Positions 1,387-7,052 of a stretch of DNA of 64,000 nucleotides are shown piece after piece. The first letter of the stretch is position 1, and the number at the start of each line of letters is the position of its first letter. The stretch is from Pseudarthrobacter raffinosi. GTDB taxonomy: Bacteria; Actinomycetota; Actinomycetes; Actinomycetales; Micrococcaceae. Location of the stretch: contig NZ_JAMXBH010000010.1 in assembly GCF_023913735.1 (NCBI RefSeq), forward strand, positions 124,001-188,000. The letters are read 5' to 3'. Below the pieces are notes generated by a model that had not been told where the DNA came from, did not search any database, and saw only the letters and a program-made list of their open reading frames with translations. The position numbers and the translations under genes were made by a program.

Positions 1387-2964
1387 CTACTCCACGGTGA
1401 CCATGACAGACTGCCAGCCGGAGGCGCCGTCGGGCACCGGATCGGCCCGCTGATCGGTCTGGACCTCGCCCGTTCCGTCGGTGGCGCGGACCTTGATGTA
1501 GTGCGGTCCCGGTGTGGCTTCCCAGTCGAAGGACCACTGGCGCCACGTGATGAGGGACGCCTCGGTGGACAGGACTGCCTCGGCCCAGGGGTTGTTGTCG
1601 ATCTGGACTTCCACCTTGGTGATGCCGCGGGTCTGTGCCCACGCAGTGCCGCCGATCGCCACCCGGCCGGCGGGCACCTTGGCGAAGGACTTCGGAACTT
1701 CCACCCGGGCCATGGTCTTGATGGGGCCGCGCTCGGACCAGCCGCGCTGGGTCCAGTAGGCCTTGCTGTCCGCGAACCGCGTCACTTCCAGGTCCACCAC
1801 CCACTTGGTGGCGGAGACAAAACCGTACAGCCCGGGCACCACCATGCGCACCGGATAGCCGTGCTCCAGCGGCAGGGGCTCGCCGTTCATGCCGATCGCC
1901 AGCATGGCATCGCGGTCATCCTGCAGGACCTCCAGCGGCGTGGAGGCGCTGAAGCCATCGATCGACGTCGACAGCACCATGTCCGCACCGTCCTTGGGAC
2001 GTGCGCGCTTGAGGACCTCGCGGATGGGAAGGCCGAGCCAGCGAGCGTTCCCGGCGAGGTTTCCGCCCACGGGATTGGAAACACAGGTGAGGGTCACGTG
2101 CGATTCGATGAGGTCGGCGTCGAGCAGGTCCTGGAAGGTGAGGCGGACCTCTTCCTCCACCAGCCCGTGCACGCGGAGCTCCCAGTCTTCGGCGTTGATT
2201 TCGGGCACGCTCAGGGCGGTATCGATCCGGTAGAAGTCCCCGTTGGGGGTCAGCCAGGGGCCGACGCCGGCTGCCGGAGACTGGACGCCGGCGGGCACAG
2301 CGGCCGCGGCCTTTGCCGGGGTGGGCAGCTGCAGGGCCTCGCGGGCCTTGGTGATGTTGCTGCGGGCGGCGCTGAGCAGGCGTCCGCCCGTGGCTGCGAT
2401 CCCAGCGCCGGCCACGGTGATCCCGGCCGCGGCGAAGAAGCGTCGGCGGCTGGTGGCGGGACGGTCAGGTTCCGCGGCGCCCGTGTCGGCAGGAGCCTCG
2501 GGCCAGGACTTCAGCCGCCAGAGCGGGGCGATCAGCAGCCGCAGCACCACCAGCCCTGCAATTGTGCCCAGCACGGTGGGGATGGCATCCAGCGGCTTCA
2601 CGCTGGCCCGAGTCACCACGCTGGCCACGATCACCGCGCCCATCAGCAGCACACCGGCAACGCCCAGCGCCCACTTGCGGTAGGCCACCACACCCAGCAC
2701 GCAGGCCAGCAGGAAAATGGTCAGGCCCATCCCCACAAACAGCGCGGCTTTGTCATTCGTGCCGAACGTGGCGATGGCAAAGTCCTTCATCCACGGCGGT
2801 GTGAAGTCGATGAACGTGGACCCCAACGCGATCACCGGAGTTGCCCGGGCGGTAAAGAACGCTCCGATCAGCTCCGCTACGGAAAGTACGACGGCGGCAG
2901 CCGCCACGCCTGCCAGCGCGGCCATTGCGGCGGGGTCCTTGAGCCACTTCAGAAGCTTCTTCAT
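1387..2964 (-). CDS. Membrane-anchored molybdopterin-dependent oxidoreductase (sulfite oxidase/YedY-like)
   Basis: A 525-residue protein with about five N-terminal membrane segments (residues 1-150), a linker with a basic SRRRFFAAAG motif before another hydrophobic stretch, and a C-terminal oxidoreductase molybdopterin domain (about 230-430) followed by a Mo-co dimerisation domain. The cofactor-ligating cysteine is probably Cys294 in the LTCVSNPVGGN motif. The active site is expected outside the membrane. The substrate cannot be read from sequence; sulfite or another S/N-oxide is possible. I chose the internal ATG at 2964 (MKKLLKWLKD), which begins directly before the first membrane helix, over a GTG at 3012. 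It is divergent from purD with about 100 bp between. Confidence 0.85.
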   Translation of the reverse strand: MKKLLKWLKDPAAMAALAGVAAAAVVLSVAELIGAFFTARATPVIALGSTFIDFTPPWMKDFAIATFGTNDKAALFVGMGLTIFLLACVLGVVAYRKWALGVAGVLLMGAVIVASVVTRASVKPLDAIPTVLGTIAGLVVLRLLIAPLWRLKSWPEAPADTGAAEPDRPATSRRRFFAAAGITVAGAGIAATGGRLLSAARSNITKAREALQLPTPAKAAAAVPAGVQSPAAGVGPWLTPNGDFYRIDTALSVPEINAEDWELRVHGLVEEEVRLTFQDLLDADLIESHVTLTCVSNPVGGNLAGNARWLGLPIREVLKRARPKDGADMVLSTSIDGFSASTPLEVLQDDRDAMLAIGMNGEPLPLEHGYPVRMVVPGLYGFVSATKWVVDLEVTRFADSKAYWTQRGWSERGPIKTMARVEVPKSFAKVPAGRVAIGGTAWAQTRGITKVEVQIDNNPWAEAVLSTEASLITWRQWSFDWEATPGPHYIKVRATDGTGEVQTDQRADPVPDGASGWQSVMVTVE

Positions 2965-3068
2965 GCCTTGGATTCGTTGCGGCGGGCCGCAGGGATGGCC
3001 GGGCGAGGACACAGCTTAGGAGCACCCCCTTAGGAAAGGGCAGGGTGCACAAAGTACCCTTGGAGACT

Positions 3069-4385
3069 GTGAAGGTACTCGTCATTGGCCCTGGAGGCCG
3101 CGAACACGCCATTGTCCGCTCCCTGCTCGCCGACCCCAACGTATCCGAGGTCCATGCGGCTCCCGGCAACGCCGGCATCAGCAAGCTGGTCCCCACCCAC
3201 AACATTGACGGGAATGATCCCGACGCCGTCGAGGCGCTGGCCACCAAGCTCGGCGTGGACCTCGTGGTGGTGGGCCCCGAGGCGCCGCTGGCTGCCGGGG
3301 TGTCCGACGCCGTCCGCGCCGCCGGCATTCCGGTCTTTGGCCCCAGCAAGGCCGCAGCGCAGCTGGAAGCCTCCAAAGCGTTCGCCAAGGAAGTTATGGC
3401 CGAAGCGGGAGTCCCCACGGCCATGGCGATGGTGGCCACAAACGCCGAGGAAGCCGCCGCGGCCCTGGACACCTTCGGCGCACCCTATGTGGTGAAGGAT
3501 GACGGCCTCGCCGCCGGCAAGGGCGTGGTGGTCACCAACAACCGCGACGAAGCCCTGGCCCATGCGCAGACGTGCTTCGACGCCGCTGGCACCGTGGTGA
3601 TCGAGGAGTTCCTCGATGGCCCCGAGGTTTCCGTTTTTGTCCTCTGTGACGGCCGCAACACCGTGGCACTGTCCCCGGCGCAGGACTTCAAACGCATCTT
3701 CGACAACGACGAAGGCCCCAACACCGGCGGCATGGGTGCCTATACGCCGCTGGAATGGGCCCCGGCCGGGCTGGTCCAGGAAGTCATCGACCGCGTCGCG
3801 CAGCCCACGGTCAACGAGATGGCCAACCGCGGCACCCCGTTTGTGGGTGTGCTGTTTGTGGGCCTGGCGCTGACCACGCGCGGCACCCGCGTCATCGAAT
3901 TCAACGTCCGCTTCGGCGACCCCGAGACGCAGGCCGTCCTGGCCCGGCTCAAGACCCCCCTCGGTGCGCTGCTGCTGGCAGCCGCCAAGGGCGAACTGGA
4001 CAAGGCAGACGAGCTGCGCTGGTCCAAGGAGACCGCCGTCGCCGTCGTCGTCGCGTCCGAAAACTACCCGGACACCCCGCGCACCGGTGACCGCATCCGC
4101 GGACTCAAGAAGGTGGACGAGCTCGACGGCGTGCACGTGATCCACGCAGGCACTGCGCTCGACGACGACGGCAAGGTGATCTCCGCCGGCGGCCGGGTGC
4201 TCGCCGTCGTTGCCCTCGGCAGCGACCTGGTGGAGGCCCGGGAACGGGCGTACGACGGCGTGGAGCTGGTTCAGCTGGAAGGCTCCCAGTTCCGGACGGA
4301 CATCGGACGCAAGGCCGCCCGCGGTGAAATCAAGGTAACGGCACTGGCCACCGGATCGCTCCCTGTCACGAAGGCGAAGGCATAA
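3069..4385 (+). CDS. purD: Phosphoribosylamine--glycine ligase
   Basis: PurD ligates glycine to phosphoribosylamine with ATP, the second step of IMP synthesis. The GTG at 3069 gives the typical N-terminus VKVLVIGPGGREHAIV and has a GGAG ribosome site at 3062-3065; a start at 3045 would add eight unlikely residues. An ATP-grasp domain spans the middle, with KDDGLAAGKGV near residue 145, EEFLDGPEVSVFVLCDG, and the metal-binding end EFNVRFGDPETQ near 282-293. The length of 438 residues is normal. It is followed after one base by purC, so the pair is an operon. Confidence 0.97.
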   Translation: MKVLVIGPGGREHAIVRSLLADPNVSEVHAAPGNAGISKLVPTHNIDGNDPDAVEALATKLGVDLVVVGPEAPLAAGVSDAVRAAGIPVFGPSKAAAQLEASKAFAKEVMAEAGVPTAMAMVATNAEEAAAALDTFGAPYVVKDDGLAAGKGVVVTNNRDEALAHAQTCFDAAGTVVIEEFLDGPEVSVFVLCDGRNTVALSPAQDFKRIFDNDEGPNTGGMGAYTPLEWAPAGLVQEVIDRVAQPTVNEMANRGTPFVGVLFVGLALTTRGTRVIEFNVRFGDPETQAVLARLKTPLGALLLAAAKGELDKADELRWSKETAVAVVVASENYPDTPRTGDRIRGLKKVDELDGVHVIHAGTALDDDGKVISAGGRVLAVVALGSDLVEARERAYDGVELVQLEGSQFRTDIGRKAARGEIKVTALATGSLPVTKAKA

Positions 4386-4386
4386 C

Positions 4387-5340
4387 ATGACTGAGAACTC
4401 CGCCCAGGAACCACAGCAGCCCCGCGGCTTCAGCACCGAAACCCTGGACCTGCCGGGCTGGACGCACGTTTACTCCGGCAAGGTCCGCGACCTCTACGAG
4501 CCGGCGGACGAAGCCATCCGCCGGCAGGTGGGCCAGGACTGCGTCCTGGTGGTGGCGAGCGACCGCATCAGCGCCTTCGACCACGTGCTGGCCAGCGAGA
4601 TCCCGGACAAGGGCCGCATCCTCACGCAGTTGAGCCTGTGGTGGTTCGACCAGCTTGACGTGGTCCACCACGTGCTGGCATCCACCGTGGAAGACGGCGT
4701 TCCCGCGGCCGTGGAAGGCCGCGCGATGATCTGCAGGAAGCTGGACATGTTCCCTGTGGAATGCATCGCCCGCGGCTACCTCACCGGCTCCGGACTGCTG
4801 GAGTACAAGGCCAGGGGTACGGTCTGCGAGATTCCGCTGCCGCCAGGCCTGGTGGACGGATCCCGGCTGGAACAGGCGATCTTCACACCGTCGGCCAAGG
4901 CCGAGGTGGGCGAGCATGACGAGAACATCTCCTACAACGATGTTGTGGCCATGGTGGGGGACGACATCGCCGCACGCCTCAGCGAGCTGACCCTCAAGAT
5001 CTACACCGGCGCGGAGAAGATCGCCCGCGAACGCGGCATCATCCTGGCCGACACCAAGGTTGAGTTCGGCTACGACGCCGTGTCCGGGGCCATCACCCTG
5101 GGCGATGAGGTCCTGACACCGGATTCCTCGCGTTTCTGGGATGCGGCCACGTATGAGCCGGGCAAAGCGCAGCCTTCTTACGACAAGCAGTATGTGCGCG
5201 ACTGGCTGACGTCCGCCGAATCAGGCTGGGACCGGTCCTCCGAATCGCCACCGCCAGCCCTGCCCGCAGACGTGGTGGCCCGGACGCGCGGCCGCTACGT
5301 CGAGGCCTACGAGAAAATCACCGGCAGGACGTTCGCCTAG
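4387..5340 (+). CDS. purC: Phosphoribosylaminoimidazole-succinocarboxamide synthase
   Basis: SAICAR synthase condenses CAIR with aspartate using ATP in purine synthesis. Diagnostic features are YSGKVRDLYE near residues 28-37, LVVASDRISAFDHVL near 55-69, VECIARGYLTGSG near 120-132, and LADTKVEFGYD near 221-231. At 317 residues it is the longer actinobacterial/eukaryal-type enzyme. It starts two bases after purD ends, with no promoter room, so it is cotranscribed. A strong hairpin right after the stop terminates the operon. Confidence 0.97.
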   Translation: MTENSAQEPQQPRGFSTETLDLPGWTHVYSGKVRDLYEPADEAIRRQVGQDCVLVVASDRISAFDHVLASEIPDKGRILTQLSLWWFDQLDVVHHVLASTVEDGVPAAVEGRAMICRKLDMFPVECIARGYLTGSGLLEYKARGTVCEIPLPPGLVDGSRLEQAIFTPSAKAEVGEHDENISYNDVVAMVGDDIAARLSELTLKIYTGAEKIARERGIILADTKVEFGYDAVSGAITLGDEVLTPDSSRFWDAATYEPGKAQPSYDKQYVRDWLTSAESGWDRSSESPPPALPADVVARTRGRYVEAYEKITGRTFA

Positions 5341-5350
5341 AACACCTTTG

Positions 5351-5377
5351 ACGGGCCCGGCTTCCGGCCGGGCCCGT
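5351..5377. terminator. Bidirectional intrinsic terminator between purC and the XRE gene
   Basis: A perfect 10-bp GC stem, ACGGGCCCGG (5351-5360) with CCGGGCCCGT (5368-5377), and a 7-nt loop lies between two converging genes. It ends two bases before the XRE stop codon. There is no long U tract, as is common in high-GC actinobacteria. Confidence 0.7.
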
Positions 5378-5379
5378 TA

Positions 5380-6654
5380 CTAGCTTGCCTTGGCGTTTTT
5401 CGCTCCTGCGGCGGCCCGCTGCTGGGCGAGTCTGATCTCAAGGACCGCGTCCAGGGCCTGCTGGACACGGTCCGAGGCTCCCGCGGCACTGAAGGCCTTC
5501 TGCGCTTCTTCGAGGTAGACCAGGGCTTCGTCGGACTCACCGGCGGCCTTCAGCGACTTGCCCAGCAGGAGTGAGACTTCCCCGGCCGTGTGCTTGGCCA
5601 GCGCGCCGGATTCGGCGTGGATTTCCCGGAGCTTGTTGATGGCAGCCACGATGTCGCCGGTGAGATAAAGCCAGCGCGCGCGGATAAACGCAACTTCGAG
5701 TTGGTCGCTCTTGTTGCCGCCCACAATGGACAGCGCCAGTTCGGCGCGCTCGATGCTGGAAAGTGTTTCCGGTTCTACGATTCCGGAGGACAGCCGGACG
5801 GCGGCCGAGGCCTTGTTGAAACGGGCCCACAGATCGATGTCGTTGGCAGGTGACAGCATCCGGGCGGCGCGCTCGTGGTACTTGATGCCTTCGGGGTAAT
5901 CGTGCCGCATAAAGGCCACGTTGCCGATCACCCAGGCAACCTCACCGGCGAGCTGGGACATGGAGTGCTCGTCCATCTGGTCATTCATGGCCTGGCAGTA
6001 TTTCCAGGCCTCATCCAGGCGGCCGCTCTCCGCCAGCGCCCCGATCAGCGCGCGGTAGGCGCCGATGATCAGGGTGGATCCGTTGGGCAGCTGGCCGCAG
6101 AGTTGTACGGCCGCCAGCGCATGTTCGACGGCAGTGCTCAGCTGGCCCTGGCCCTGGCAGATAGCGGCGAGCATCTGGCGGGCACGGACGGCGAGGCCGG
6201 CAGATTCCGTGGCCATCGGGTGCTCCAGGAGGTGCTGCATGATCTTTTGGCATTCCTGCCAGTTGCCCTGTTTGATCAGGCATTCGGCCTGCATGTAGGT
6301 CATGTTCCACCACGCGCTGGTGTTCTTGCCCTCCAGAGCTATCTGGGCCGCGGTGGCTGCGTGGGTGGCCGCCAGCGGATAGTCCCTGAGGTCCCAGGCC
6401 TGGCGCGCGTAGAGGCCGGCCAGGACGTACTCGGCGTCGCTGACTGTGATGGGTTGGCTCCAGGCTTCCAGCGCCTTGGGCGCCAGCTCCAGCCTGCGGG
6501 CGAGCTCCTCGATGACTTCGGCCGTCGGCTCACGGCGGCCGGTTTCGAGGAGGGAGATATAACTGGGGGAATACAGGTCCTTGCCCAGTGCAGCCTGTGT
6601 CAGCCCACGTTCGAGACGCTCCGCACGGAGCTTCTCCCCGAATCCGTTGCCCAC
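5380..6654 (-). CDS. XRE-family HTH regulator with TPR domain (RRNPP-like)
   Basis: The GTG at 6654 is preceded by a perfect AGGAGG seven bases upstream, which fixes the start; 424 residues. Residues about 4-60 are an HTH_3 domain (GEKLRAERLERGLTQAALG, then SPSYISLLETGRREPT as recognition helix and beyond). The rest is a chain of helical pairs typical of tetratricopeptide repeats, for example WWNMTYMQAECLIKQGNWQE and AGEVAWVIGNVAFMRHDYPE. This domain order and length match RRNPP peptide-sensing regulators (Rgg, NprR, PlcR type). That it senses a peptide is inference, supported by the divergent gene for a small secreted peptide 132 bp away. A plain TPR transcription factor without a peptide ligand is the alternative. 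Confidence 0.88.
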   Translation of the reverse strand: MGNGFGEKLRAERLERGLTQAALGKDLYSPSYISLLETGRREPTAEVIEELARRLELAPKALEAWSQPITVSDAEYVLAGLYARQAWDLRDYPLAATHAATAAQIALEGKNTSAWWNMTYMQAECLIKQGNWQECQKIMQHLLEHPMATESAGLAVRARQMLAAICQGQGQLSTAVEHALAAVQLCGQLPNGSTLIIGAYRALIGALAESGRLDEAWKYCQAMNDQMDEHSMSQLAGEVAWVIGNVAFMRHDYPEGIKYHERAARMLSPANDIDLWARFNKASAAVRLSSGIVEPETLSSIERAELALSIVGGNKSDQLEVAFIRARWLYLTGDIVAAINKLREIHAESGALAKHTAGEVSLLLGKSLKAAGESDEALVYLEEAQKAFSAAGASDRVQQALDAVLEIRLAQQRAAAGAKNAKAS

Positions 6655-6673
6655 GGGAATTCCTCCTGATTCT

Positions 6674-6757
6674 GGACAGTCTTTGTACTCAATGCTTGAC
6701 AGTACCTGTGCAAAACATTTTACAATGTATGTCAACAAGGACAGTGCTGACTTTGTA
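6674..6757. promoter_or_regulatory. Shared divergent control region of XRE-TPR and peptide genes
   Basis: For the plus strand there is a perfect -35 TTGACA (6696-6701) and a -10 TACAAT (6721-6726) with a rather long 19-bp spacer. A mirror-image TTGACA lies on the minus strand (6735-6730). A direct repeat is present: GGACAGT plus CTTTGTA at 6674-6687 and again GGACAGT (6739-6745) plus CTTTGTA (6751-6757). ACATT (6715-6719) and AATGT (6724-6728) form a perfect dyad over the -10. These are good candidates for XRE operator sites; binding is not shown by sequence alone. Confidence 0.55.
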
Positions 6758-6786
6758 ACGAATCCGACTCGTATTGAGGAACTCAT

Positions 6787-6954
6787 ATGTTGAAGAATAT
6801 TGCGGCCGCAGGCCTACTTGCTGCTGCCTTGGCATTTTCTGCGGCGGCCCCGGCTGTCCTGTCGGCAGGTTCCATCGCCGATACCACCGGCGTATCCGTA
6901 GCCGTTGGCAACTGGCCCGATCCAATGTCCAAGCCCGTCAAGGACAAGGGCTAG
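6787..6954 (+). CDS. Small secreted peptide precursor, candidate pheromone (55 aa)
   Basis: ATG 6787 has a GAGGA site (6776-6780) six bases upstream. The product has a textbook Sec signal: a Lys at position 3, a hydrophobic run IAAAGLLAAALAFSAAAPAV, then VLSAG as probable signal peptidase site near residue 27. The remaining about 28 residues, including VGNWPDPMSKPVKDKG, would be exported. It lies divergent from the XRE-TPR gene and is followed by its own terminator, so it is a single-gene message of roughly 320 nt. Phr/Rgg-type signalling peptides have this size and architecture; I infer a signalling role from context only. A simple secreted micro-protein is the alternative. Confidence 0.7.
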   Translation: MLKNIAAAGLLAAALAFSAAAPAVLSAGSIADTTGVSVAVGNWPDPMSKPVKDKG

Positions 6955-6987
6955 ACCTACACCACCAACGTGGGCAACTGACCCGAT
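6904..6987 (+). repeat. In-frame direct repeat of the VGNWPD coding motif
   Basis: GTTGGCAACTGGCCCGAT (6904-6921) inside the peptide gene recurs as GTGGGCAACTGACCCGAT (6970-6987) beyond its TAG stop. Identity is 16 of 18, the spacing is 66 bp (22 codons) so the frame is kept, and the two changes are a synonymous Val codon and TGG to TGA. This looks like an internal duplication that is now outside, or cut from, the reading frame. Confidence 0.7.
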
Positions 6988-7012
6988 GTAAGGAATCCTC
7001 TCAGGAGGCGAG

Positions 7013-7052
7013 GCCCCGGGGCATGGTCATCATGCCTCGGGGCTATTTCTTT
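7013..7052 (+). terminator. Intrinsic terminator of the peptide gene
   Basis: GCCCCGGGGCATG (7013-7025) pairs with CATGCCTCGGGGC (7031-7043) over a GTCAT loop, with one mismatch, and is followed by the U-rich TATTTCTTT. Confidence 0.85.

Follow-up and report, generated by a model that had tools for sequence, protein, structure and literature searches.

A candidate peptide-pheromone and receptor pair of the RRNPP type in Micrococcaceae (Actinomycetota)

The window, a stretch of 64,000 nucleotides of Pseudarthrobacter raffinosi (positions 124001–188000 within a 4.58-Mb assembly), carries an HTH-TPR regulator gene and, divergent from it, a short gene for a Sec-type propeptide. The two genes likely constitute a peptide-pheromone/receptor pair of the RRNPP type in Micrococcaceae (Actinomycetota); very probably they serve communication by peptides, in a form that has otherwise been described from another bacterial phylum. 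The decisive observation for the pair, drawn from sequence comparison, was a co-switch of residue 1 of the octapeptide with three receptor residues. An RRNPP-type pair had been proposed in a sequence-only reading of this locus, and that proposal was supported by the layout, the conservation of the peptide, purifying selection, the co-switch and a predicted fold resembling nine TPRs.

The pair sat between purC and tRNA-Pro (Table 1), and the closest named relatives of the regulator belonged to Arthrobacter and Pseudarthrobacter strains (97–98% identity). Both genes were re-derived, which confirmed the description of a 424-aa HTH and TPR regulator lying head to head with a 55-codon Sec-type gene, 132 bp apart. 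Strong ribosome sites had also been claimed and were recovered on both genes: AGGAGG preceded the GTG of the regulator, and a conserved SD, ATTGAGGA, preceded the peptide gene in the aligned loci. Terminators had been placed on both sides of the pair; the one behind the peptide gene (7012–7044) was confirmed, but behind the regulator there was a strong hairpin without a T-run, and the terminator scan gave no match there. The Pfam HTH_31 match of the regulator scored 44.7 bits (cut-off 27), and its TPR matches were also above the Pfam cut-offs. An N-terminal HTH, one of the RRNPPA criteria, was thus present. A 468-aa ORF from ATG 6786 was rejected as the gene, the conserved N-terminus being MGNGFG.

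Table 1. Positions of the features of the regulator/peptide locus, numbered within the window.
Feature	Position	Strand	Remark
HTH-TPR regulator, proposed cytoplasmic receptor	5380..6654	-	GTG start, 424 aa
HTH domain, residues 5-64	6463..6642	-	Pfam HTH_31/HTH_3
TPR domain, residues 69-423, 17 helices	5386..6450	-	AlphaFold2 model, mostly pLDDT >75
Receptor residue 127: Ile here, Met in Ile-peptide strains	6274..6276	-	co-switch with octapeptide residue 1
Receptor residue 132: Trp here, Leu in Ile-peptide strains	6259..6261	-	co-switch
Receptor residue 167: Gln here, His in Ile-peptide strains	6154..6156	-	co-switch
Divergent promoter region, 132 bp, common to both genes	6655..6786	.	36-locus alignment
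Promoter core TTGACA-19 nt-TACAAT-TGTCAACAAG	6696..6739	.	36-locus alignment; putative peptide promoter/operator
Sec-type propeptide gene, 55 aa	6787..6954	+	
Signal-peptide region MLKNIAAAGLLAAALAFSAAAPAVLSA	6787..6867	+	sequence, kept in relatives; putative cleavage site
Octapeptide VGNWPDPM, proposed pheromone core	6904..6927	+	
Decayed second repeat VGN*PDV	6970..6987	+	intact in L002, L114, L116
Intrinsic terminator of peptide gene	7012..7044	+	hairpin with T-rich tail, -30.7 kcal/mol, z -4.45
GC-rich hairpin between convergent purC and regulator genes	5345..5379	.	z -3.97

The regulator was present in 61/61 genomes of the same genus, the window's own included (it was split across two frames in G053), and the divergent peptide stood beside it in all 61. 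The peptide lay 126–141 bp upstream of the regulator in 30 of these genomes, and was also found in G015; 30 further same-genus peptides were found among 40 extra regions, every one of which contained the peptide (40/40, including L276, L281, and L304). These extra regions included same-genus genomes without an exact-motif match, in which the octapeptides start with Thr or Ser. Among the best 80 of 291 relatives, the peptide was present in 80/80 named loci, L162 and L179 included; the 61-genome and 80-locus sets overlap in genomes. A search for the pair across Micrococcaceae genomes, as the sequence-only reading had advised, recovered it in both sets, and the peptide ORF, on whose conservation that reading had staked its case, was kept in sequence and frame across relatives. 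With leaders called by charge and hydrophobicity only, the adjacent short propeptide carried a Sec-type leader, i.e., the predicted export that is another of the RRNPPA criteria. purC adjoined in 77/80 loci and a tRNA in 79/80, which indicated a core chromosomal locus. A mobile or phage origin was rejected, the synteny with purC being conserved; one profile scan of viral_contigs confirmed no relative, and the plasmids gave no peptide match.

Across the 80 loci, the propeptide comprised one to four octapeptide copies, mostly [IV]GNWPDP with M, A, or V as the last residue. A copy formed the exact C-terminal end in 78/80, the exceptions being L115 and L117, close relatives of the window. This tandem repeat, found in most relatives, had been overlooked in the earlier reading. 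All copies were identical at the protein level in 71/77 propeptides, against ~27 in a shuffle that ignores relatedness. In 2048 comparisons within the 100 genes with at least two copies, 601 codon differences between repeats were synonymous and 21 were non-synonymous, and 15 of the 21 fell on the last octapeptide residue. The ratio of 601 to 21 and the identity of the copies indicated that purifying selection maintains a single short product. A TAG at 6952 in the window strain is followed, in the second copy, by a TGG to TGA change and the loss of the end of that copy, which leaves a single intact octapeptide; the second copy was decayed by stops and indels in L115 and L117 as well, and L307, another close relative of the window, had one copy too. 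No Pfam or NCBIfam family was above the cut-off for the peptide, and PF20844 was the best of the weak sub-cut-off matches. Octapeptides beginning with Thr or Ser (TGNWPDP, SGNWPNP, and TGIWPDP) were seen in the same genus at L268–L275 and L292–L298, where the copies matched within each propeptide.

The co-switch was observed in 105 distinct Arthrobacter-group receptors from 122 loci. Residue 1 of the octapeptide was Ile in 58, Val in 41, and Ser or Thr in six. Co-conservation of the peptide motif with the TPR domain had been suggested as a check, and residue 1 tracked receptor positions 127, 132, and 167 without exception: the Ile peptides occurred with M127/L132/H167 in 58/58 receptors, and the Val peptides occurred with I127/W132/Q167 in 41/41. 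The six receptors with Ser or Thr peptides had MLQ (four), VLQ (one), or LLH (one) at these positions. Only three of the 136 variable receptor columns, those same positions, reached a phi of 1.00 with residue 1. The Ile/Val trait changed four times on the tree, and 4/4 independent pairs agreed; a sign test on the four independent switches alone gave p 0.125. The smaller side chain on the peptide (Val) was paired with the larger one on the receptor (Trp), a match that a pocket would lead one to expect. For octapeptide residue 8 (Met/Ala), the best phi with the receptor was only 0.86, with too few switches.

Two other explanations were weighed against this co-switch. The first is linkage: without any contact between the products, a single recombined block might carry both the peptide and the initial part of the receptor gene, since the genes adjoin and the three residues lie within the first 40% of the receptor. 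However, none of the 236 synonymous third positions (in codons of invariant residues) tracked the switch; the maximum phi was 0.74 overall and 0.59 in codons 110–185, even near the three residues. Moreover, no perfectly matched pair besides 127/132/167 existed among the 91 common receptor columns, and we give linkage hardly any probability. The second casts the peptide as a secreted effector with an antimicrobial, matrix, or surface role, which the TPR regulator would control while sensing something else. A secreted-type, repeated product behind a conserved promoter would fit an effector, but residue 1 switched together with three receptor residues and with no synonymous site, and the motif drifted beside diverged receptors across genera; this explanation is very unlikely.

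The pheromone/receptor reading was also compared with the predicted structure of the regulator. The AF2 model, made from 36 sequences (mean pLDDT 78.1, pTM 0.65), was usable for the TPR part, and its residues 1–68 (the HTH part) had a pLDDT <50 and were unreliable. It predicted 17 TPR helices in residues 69–423, corresponding to about nine TPRs, within the five to nine of the RRNPPA criterion. Structure matches included Rap with the competence and sporulation factor (4gyo, Z 22.5, rmsd 4.5, 323 aligned), apo NprR (5dbk, Z 22.1, rmsd 6.2, 318 residues), Rap phi105 (Z 22.1), and RapF (Z 21.4). LGN and other eukaryotic TPR proteins reached Z 26.5, with LGN above Rap, so the fold was compatible with RRNPPA and not diagnostic of it. 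By sequence, the regulator was linked to RRNPPA receptors via the HTH only (profile A1 matched the PlcR HTH, E 2.6e-6), and the pair would work like RRNPP systems as a new actinobacterial variant, whether through shared ancestry or convergence. The A helices line the groove in TPR proteins; conservation did not differ between A and B helices (35/137 vs. 28/121, p 0.67).

Here, the following mechanism is proposed. The propeptide would be exported via the Sec route and cut to the octapeptide, VGNWPDPM in this strain, which has one intact copy where relatives have as many as four. It might then re-enter through an oligopeptide ABC importer; the genome had eight SBP_bac_5 (PF00496) matches, which allow oligopeptide re-import and no more. 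In the cytoplasm the octapeptide would bind the HTH regulator in its TPR groove, where a pocket formed in part by residues 127, 132, and 167 would take up residue 1. Binding would alter the action of the regulator on the divergent promoter and, most likely, switch the peptide gene through feedback; the system would presumably sense density.

The divergent promoter had been described as containing mirrored TTGACA boxes and a GGACAGT/CTTTGTA repeat. The boxes, TTGACA (6696–6701) and TGTCAA (6730–6735), were invariant in 36 aligned loci, but the repeat was upheld only in part, its first copy not being conserved. TGTCAAC was likewise invariant in this alignment, and the window spacer from TTGACA to TACAAT, on the peptide strand, was 19 nt. 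The inner 32 bases of the putative operator core occurred once per genome, at its own locus only, in 7/7 genomes, and a regulon search by this core found no second site in any of the seven. A related box was found in other genera, with 20/25 matches in L081 and L086 and 17/25 in L073 and L091 (shuffles, 13–15); the peptide-less L088 had 14/25, within the shuffle range.

Within the 395 genomes of the family sample, 86 genomes from 5/32 genera had the exact motif, two of these genera by a single match each, and regulator homologues (E 1e-15) were found in 221 genomes and 17/32 genera. With the own family included, homologues occurred in 6/85 genera of the order sample (E 1e-15) and 4/114 genera of the class sample (E 1e-20). 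Among the remote homologues of the order and class samples, a peptide was plausible in L229, doubtful in L230 and L264, and absent in the others. The peptides of other genera had the same build, with the cores VGIWPNS, VGNWPDA, TGNWPN, PGNWPD, PGIWPDS, VWIWPD, VGEWPH, and VG[DN]WPH, the last in eight copies in L091 of one other genus. Trp-Pro was retained in these genera while the motif drifted.

An automatic peptide rule, which requires Trp-Pro and a leader, was passed by 194/220 regulator loci, including all 122 Arthrobacter-group HTH-receptor loci and the doubtful L203 (NQNDWPI); this set is redundant, since some genomes enter more than once. A chance ORF was rejected, as the rule fired on 27/970 shuffled upstream regions and on 0/167 downstream regions (167 of the 194 loci, the other 27 having too little downstream sequence). 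The remaining 26/220 loci failed the rule. In L092, L193, L196, and L201, a divergent ORF was short, had no leader and ended in or near [IV]GDWP[DH]; L205 had repeats without a recognised leader, and the peptide of L194 was elsewhere in the locus. The other 20 had no recognisable peptide. Regulators without a signal-peptide ORF had been named in advance as evidence against the pair; they occurred in these 20/220 loci, which were paralogs or in other genera, but not in the Arthrobacter group, where 122/122 passed. The 20 are real exceptions, which show that a receptor can be kept where no peptide gene adjoins it. They include orthologues from one genus that lie next to purC (L088, L089, L096, L097, and L101–L104), which are possible orphan or eavesdropping receptors, and paralogs such as L074–L079 and L100.

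Some diverged loci differed in the form of the peptide. In genus g61, the HTH receptors L193, L196, and L201 stood beside leaderless ORFs ending in VGDWPD and as short as 21 aa. In genus g44, the distant HTH receptors L198, L199, and L205 were accompanied by long repeat peptides with at least five copies of AVGNWP[DA]. L078, L081, L090, L098, L198, L199, and L205 do carry an HTH.

The exact motif was also dispersed in other parts of related genomes. Of 29 extra exact-motif loci that were read in same-genus and g36 genomes, most encoded leaderless micro-ORFs, for example MSSIGNWPDPM, MYSIGNWPDPM, and MNRIGNWPDPM. A hydrophobic leader was present in L240, L246, and L248 of g36; L243 had no credible start, and the reading of L065 was ambiguous too. 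Leaderless [IV]GNWPDP micro-ORFs of 11 to ~70 codons were seen in L063 (3536–3688), L061, L062, L064, L239, L245, L247, L249, and others, and many of those in relatives had an SD, AGTCAGGAG. None of the 13 leaderless loci scanned for the operator box was clearly above shuffles (L066, 16/25 vs. 13–15). In 17/29 loci, the motif was preceded, at a distance of 103–188 nt, by the stop of an ORF that ends in DPG[SC][STR]P[DG], and this end looks like a conserved peptide tag. One such ORF without a Pfam family (L063, 2440–3447) was located just upstream of the micro-ORF; similar ends were found in L061, L062, L067, L068, L072, L239, L241, L244, L249, L250, L252–L255, L257, and L258.

Residue 1 of the micro-ORFs agreed with the main locus in 14/16 same-genus genomes (Val 4/4, Ile 10/12; exceptions G432 and G455), for which a one-sided p of ~0.008 was calculated by hand, ignoring relatedness. 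G029, outside these 16, had a Thr-type main locus and a micro-ORF with two Thr copies and one Val; in g36, one of ten dispersed copies (L244) had Val although its genome was Ile-type. That signal-less ORFs encode the same octapeptide, matched in residue 1, favors another explanation, in which the TPR regulator would bind the octapeptide as its ligand mainly inside the cell, and the octapeptide would report secretion status, signal-peptide turnover, or the expression of other genes instead of density. However, the conserved partner of the regulator is the Sec-type propeptide throughout the 61 same-genus genomes, its repeats suggest extracellular processing, and the window's own genome had a single exact motif match. 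An intracellular role of this kind is therefore improbable.

Among known systems, the proposed pheromone pair resembles NprR of the Bacillus cereus group in having an HTH followed by a nine-TPR-like array and an adjacent exported-type propeptide. It differs from NprR in belonging to Actinomycetota, in its divergent peptide gene and in its tandem Trp-Pro octapeptide; the similarity shown is one of predicted fold. PlcR-PapR, ComR-XIP, and Rgg-SHP also place an HTH-TPR receptor beside a propeptide, whereas the window protein has a longer TPR array than these five-TPR receptors, and the peptides are different. In ComR, two pheromone residues are reported to touch aromatic pocket residues (PMC8605241). 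The short signal-less ligand ORFs in relatives of the window recall RopB-LCP (PMC10518010). Unlike in RopB-LCP, these micro-ORFs lie elsewhere in genomes that also encode the octapeptide within a Sec propeptide; the window peptide itself has a Sec-type leader, whereas LCP is defined by having no signal peptide. Tandem Phr propeptides of two Bacillus phages contain several pheromone copies each (PMC11343458); the copies here are near-identical octapeptides, and one other genus has eight copies of VG[DN]WPH (L091).

Among the matches listed for open-licence PMC articles (bioRxiv and subscription journals excluded), there was no report of the peptide, of RRNPP in Arthrobacter or of RRNPP in Actinomycetota. 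The sources consulted described RRNPP-type signalling in Firmicutes. In the sections consulted of the following sources, one large survey covered only Firmicutes and viruses and described actinobacterial signals as typically small molecules (PMC10075063), and a 2016 review of actinobacterial quorum sensing gave AAA, LuxR-like, and REC domains for Arthrobacter (PMC4748050). The words Actinobacteria, Actinomycetota, and Arthrobacter were absent from the portion of a 2026 review that was available (PMC13220807). Section 7 of PMC12700828 treated RRNPPA as a Bacillota family and wished for an outgroup to root the receptors, a place that Arthrobacter receptors might fill. A coevolving, genus-wide peptide/TPR pair in Arthrobacter would carry RRNPP-type signalling into a second phylum, and a three-residue receptor-ligand code would be amenable to testing by mutation.

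Receptors without an HTH fell mostly in one tree branch. Since this branch also contains the HTH receptors L193 and L195 and some of its forks are open, loss of the HTH on a single occasion was not proved; HTH loss has been proposed for the origin of Rap too, in the same section 7 (PMC12700828). These receptors had their own Trp-Pro peptides (IGWWPN, VNNWPY, NNNWPL, GGLWPY, and others). As in Rap-Phr, some members of the family here lack the HTH and are accompanied by short Sec peptides whose ends are the presumed pheromones, e.g., ...SIGWWPN; the window protein differs from Rap in possessing the HTH, and the HTH-less relatives differ from it in their GGDEF-EAL neighbour. A homologue of the L069 GGDEF-EAL gene was located downstream on the same strand in 21/31 HTH-less loci vs. 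0/157 HTH loci, and a relative of the L069 histidine kinase was present in 12/31 vs. 0/157; the 31 loci were picked by hand, and L071 and L232 are the same gene. This arrangement suggests a peptide-to-c-di-GMP route, which did not appear in the titles and opening lines of abstracts among the matches listed. In L069 itself (2835–5869), an HTH-less TPR receptor with a divergent ...WWPN-type peptide stood directly upstream of the GGDEF-EAL gene.

As a tentative and broader proposal, for which the chances are somewhat below even, Micrococcaceae may possess a separate 'Trp-Pro' pheromone superfamily. In it, three kinds of gene would supply one octapeptide per pherotype: Sec propeptides with tandem repeats, leader peptides with a single copy, and micro-ORFs that have no leader and go down to 11 codons; the HTH-TPR receptor would read it, and the HTH-less branch would read its own peptides to control c-di-GMP enzymes. 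If so, population signals and internal gene expression would converge on a single receptor family and a single second messenger. At L194/L218 (G196:C1), two HTH-less receptors were arranged in tandem with two different peptides, one with KVGNWPGS repeats and one ending in ...LIDDWPH.
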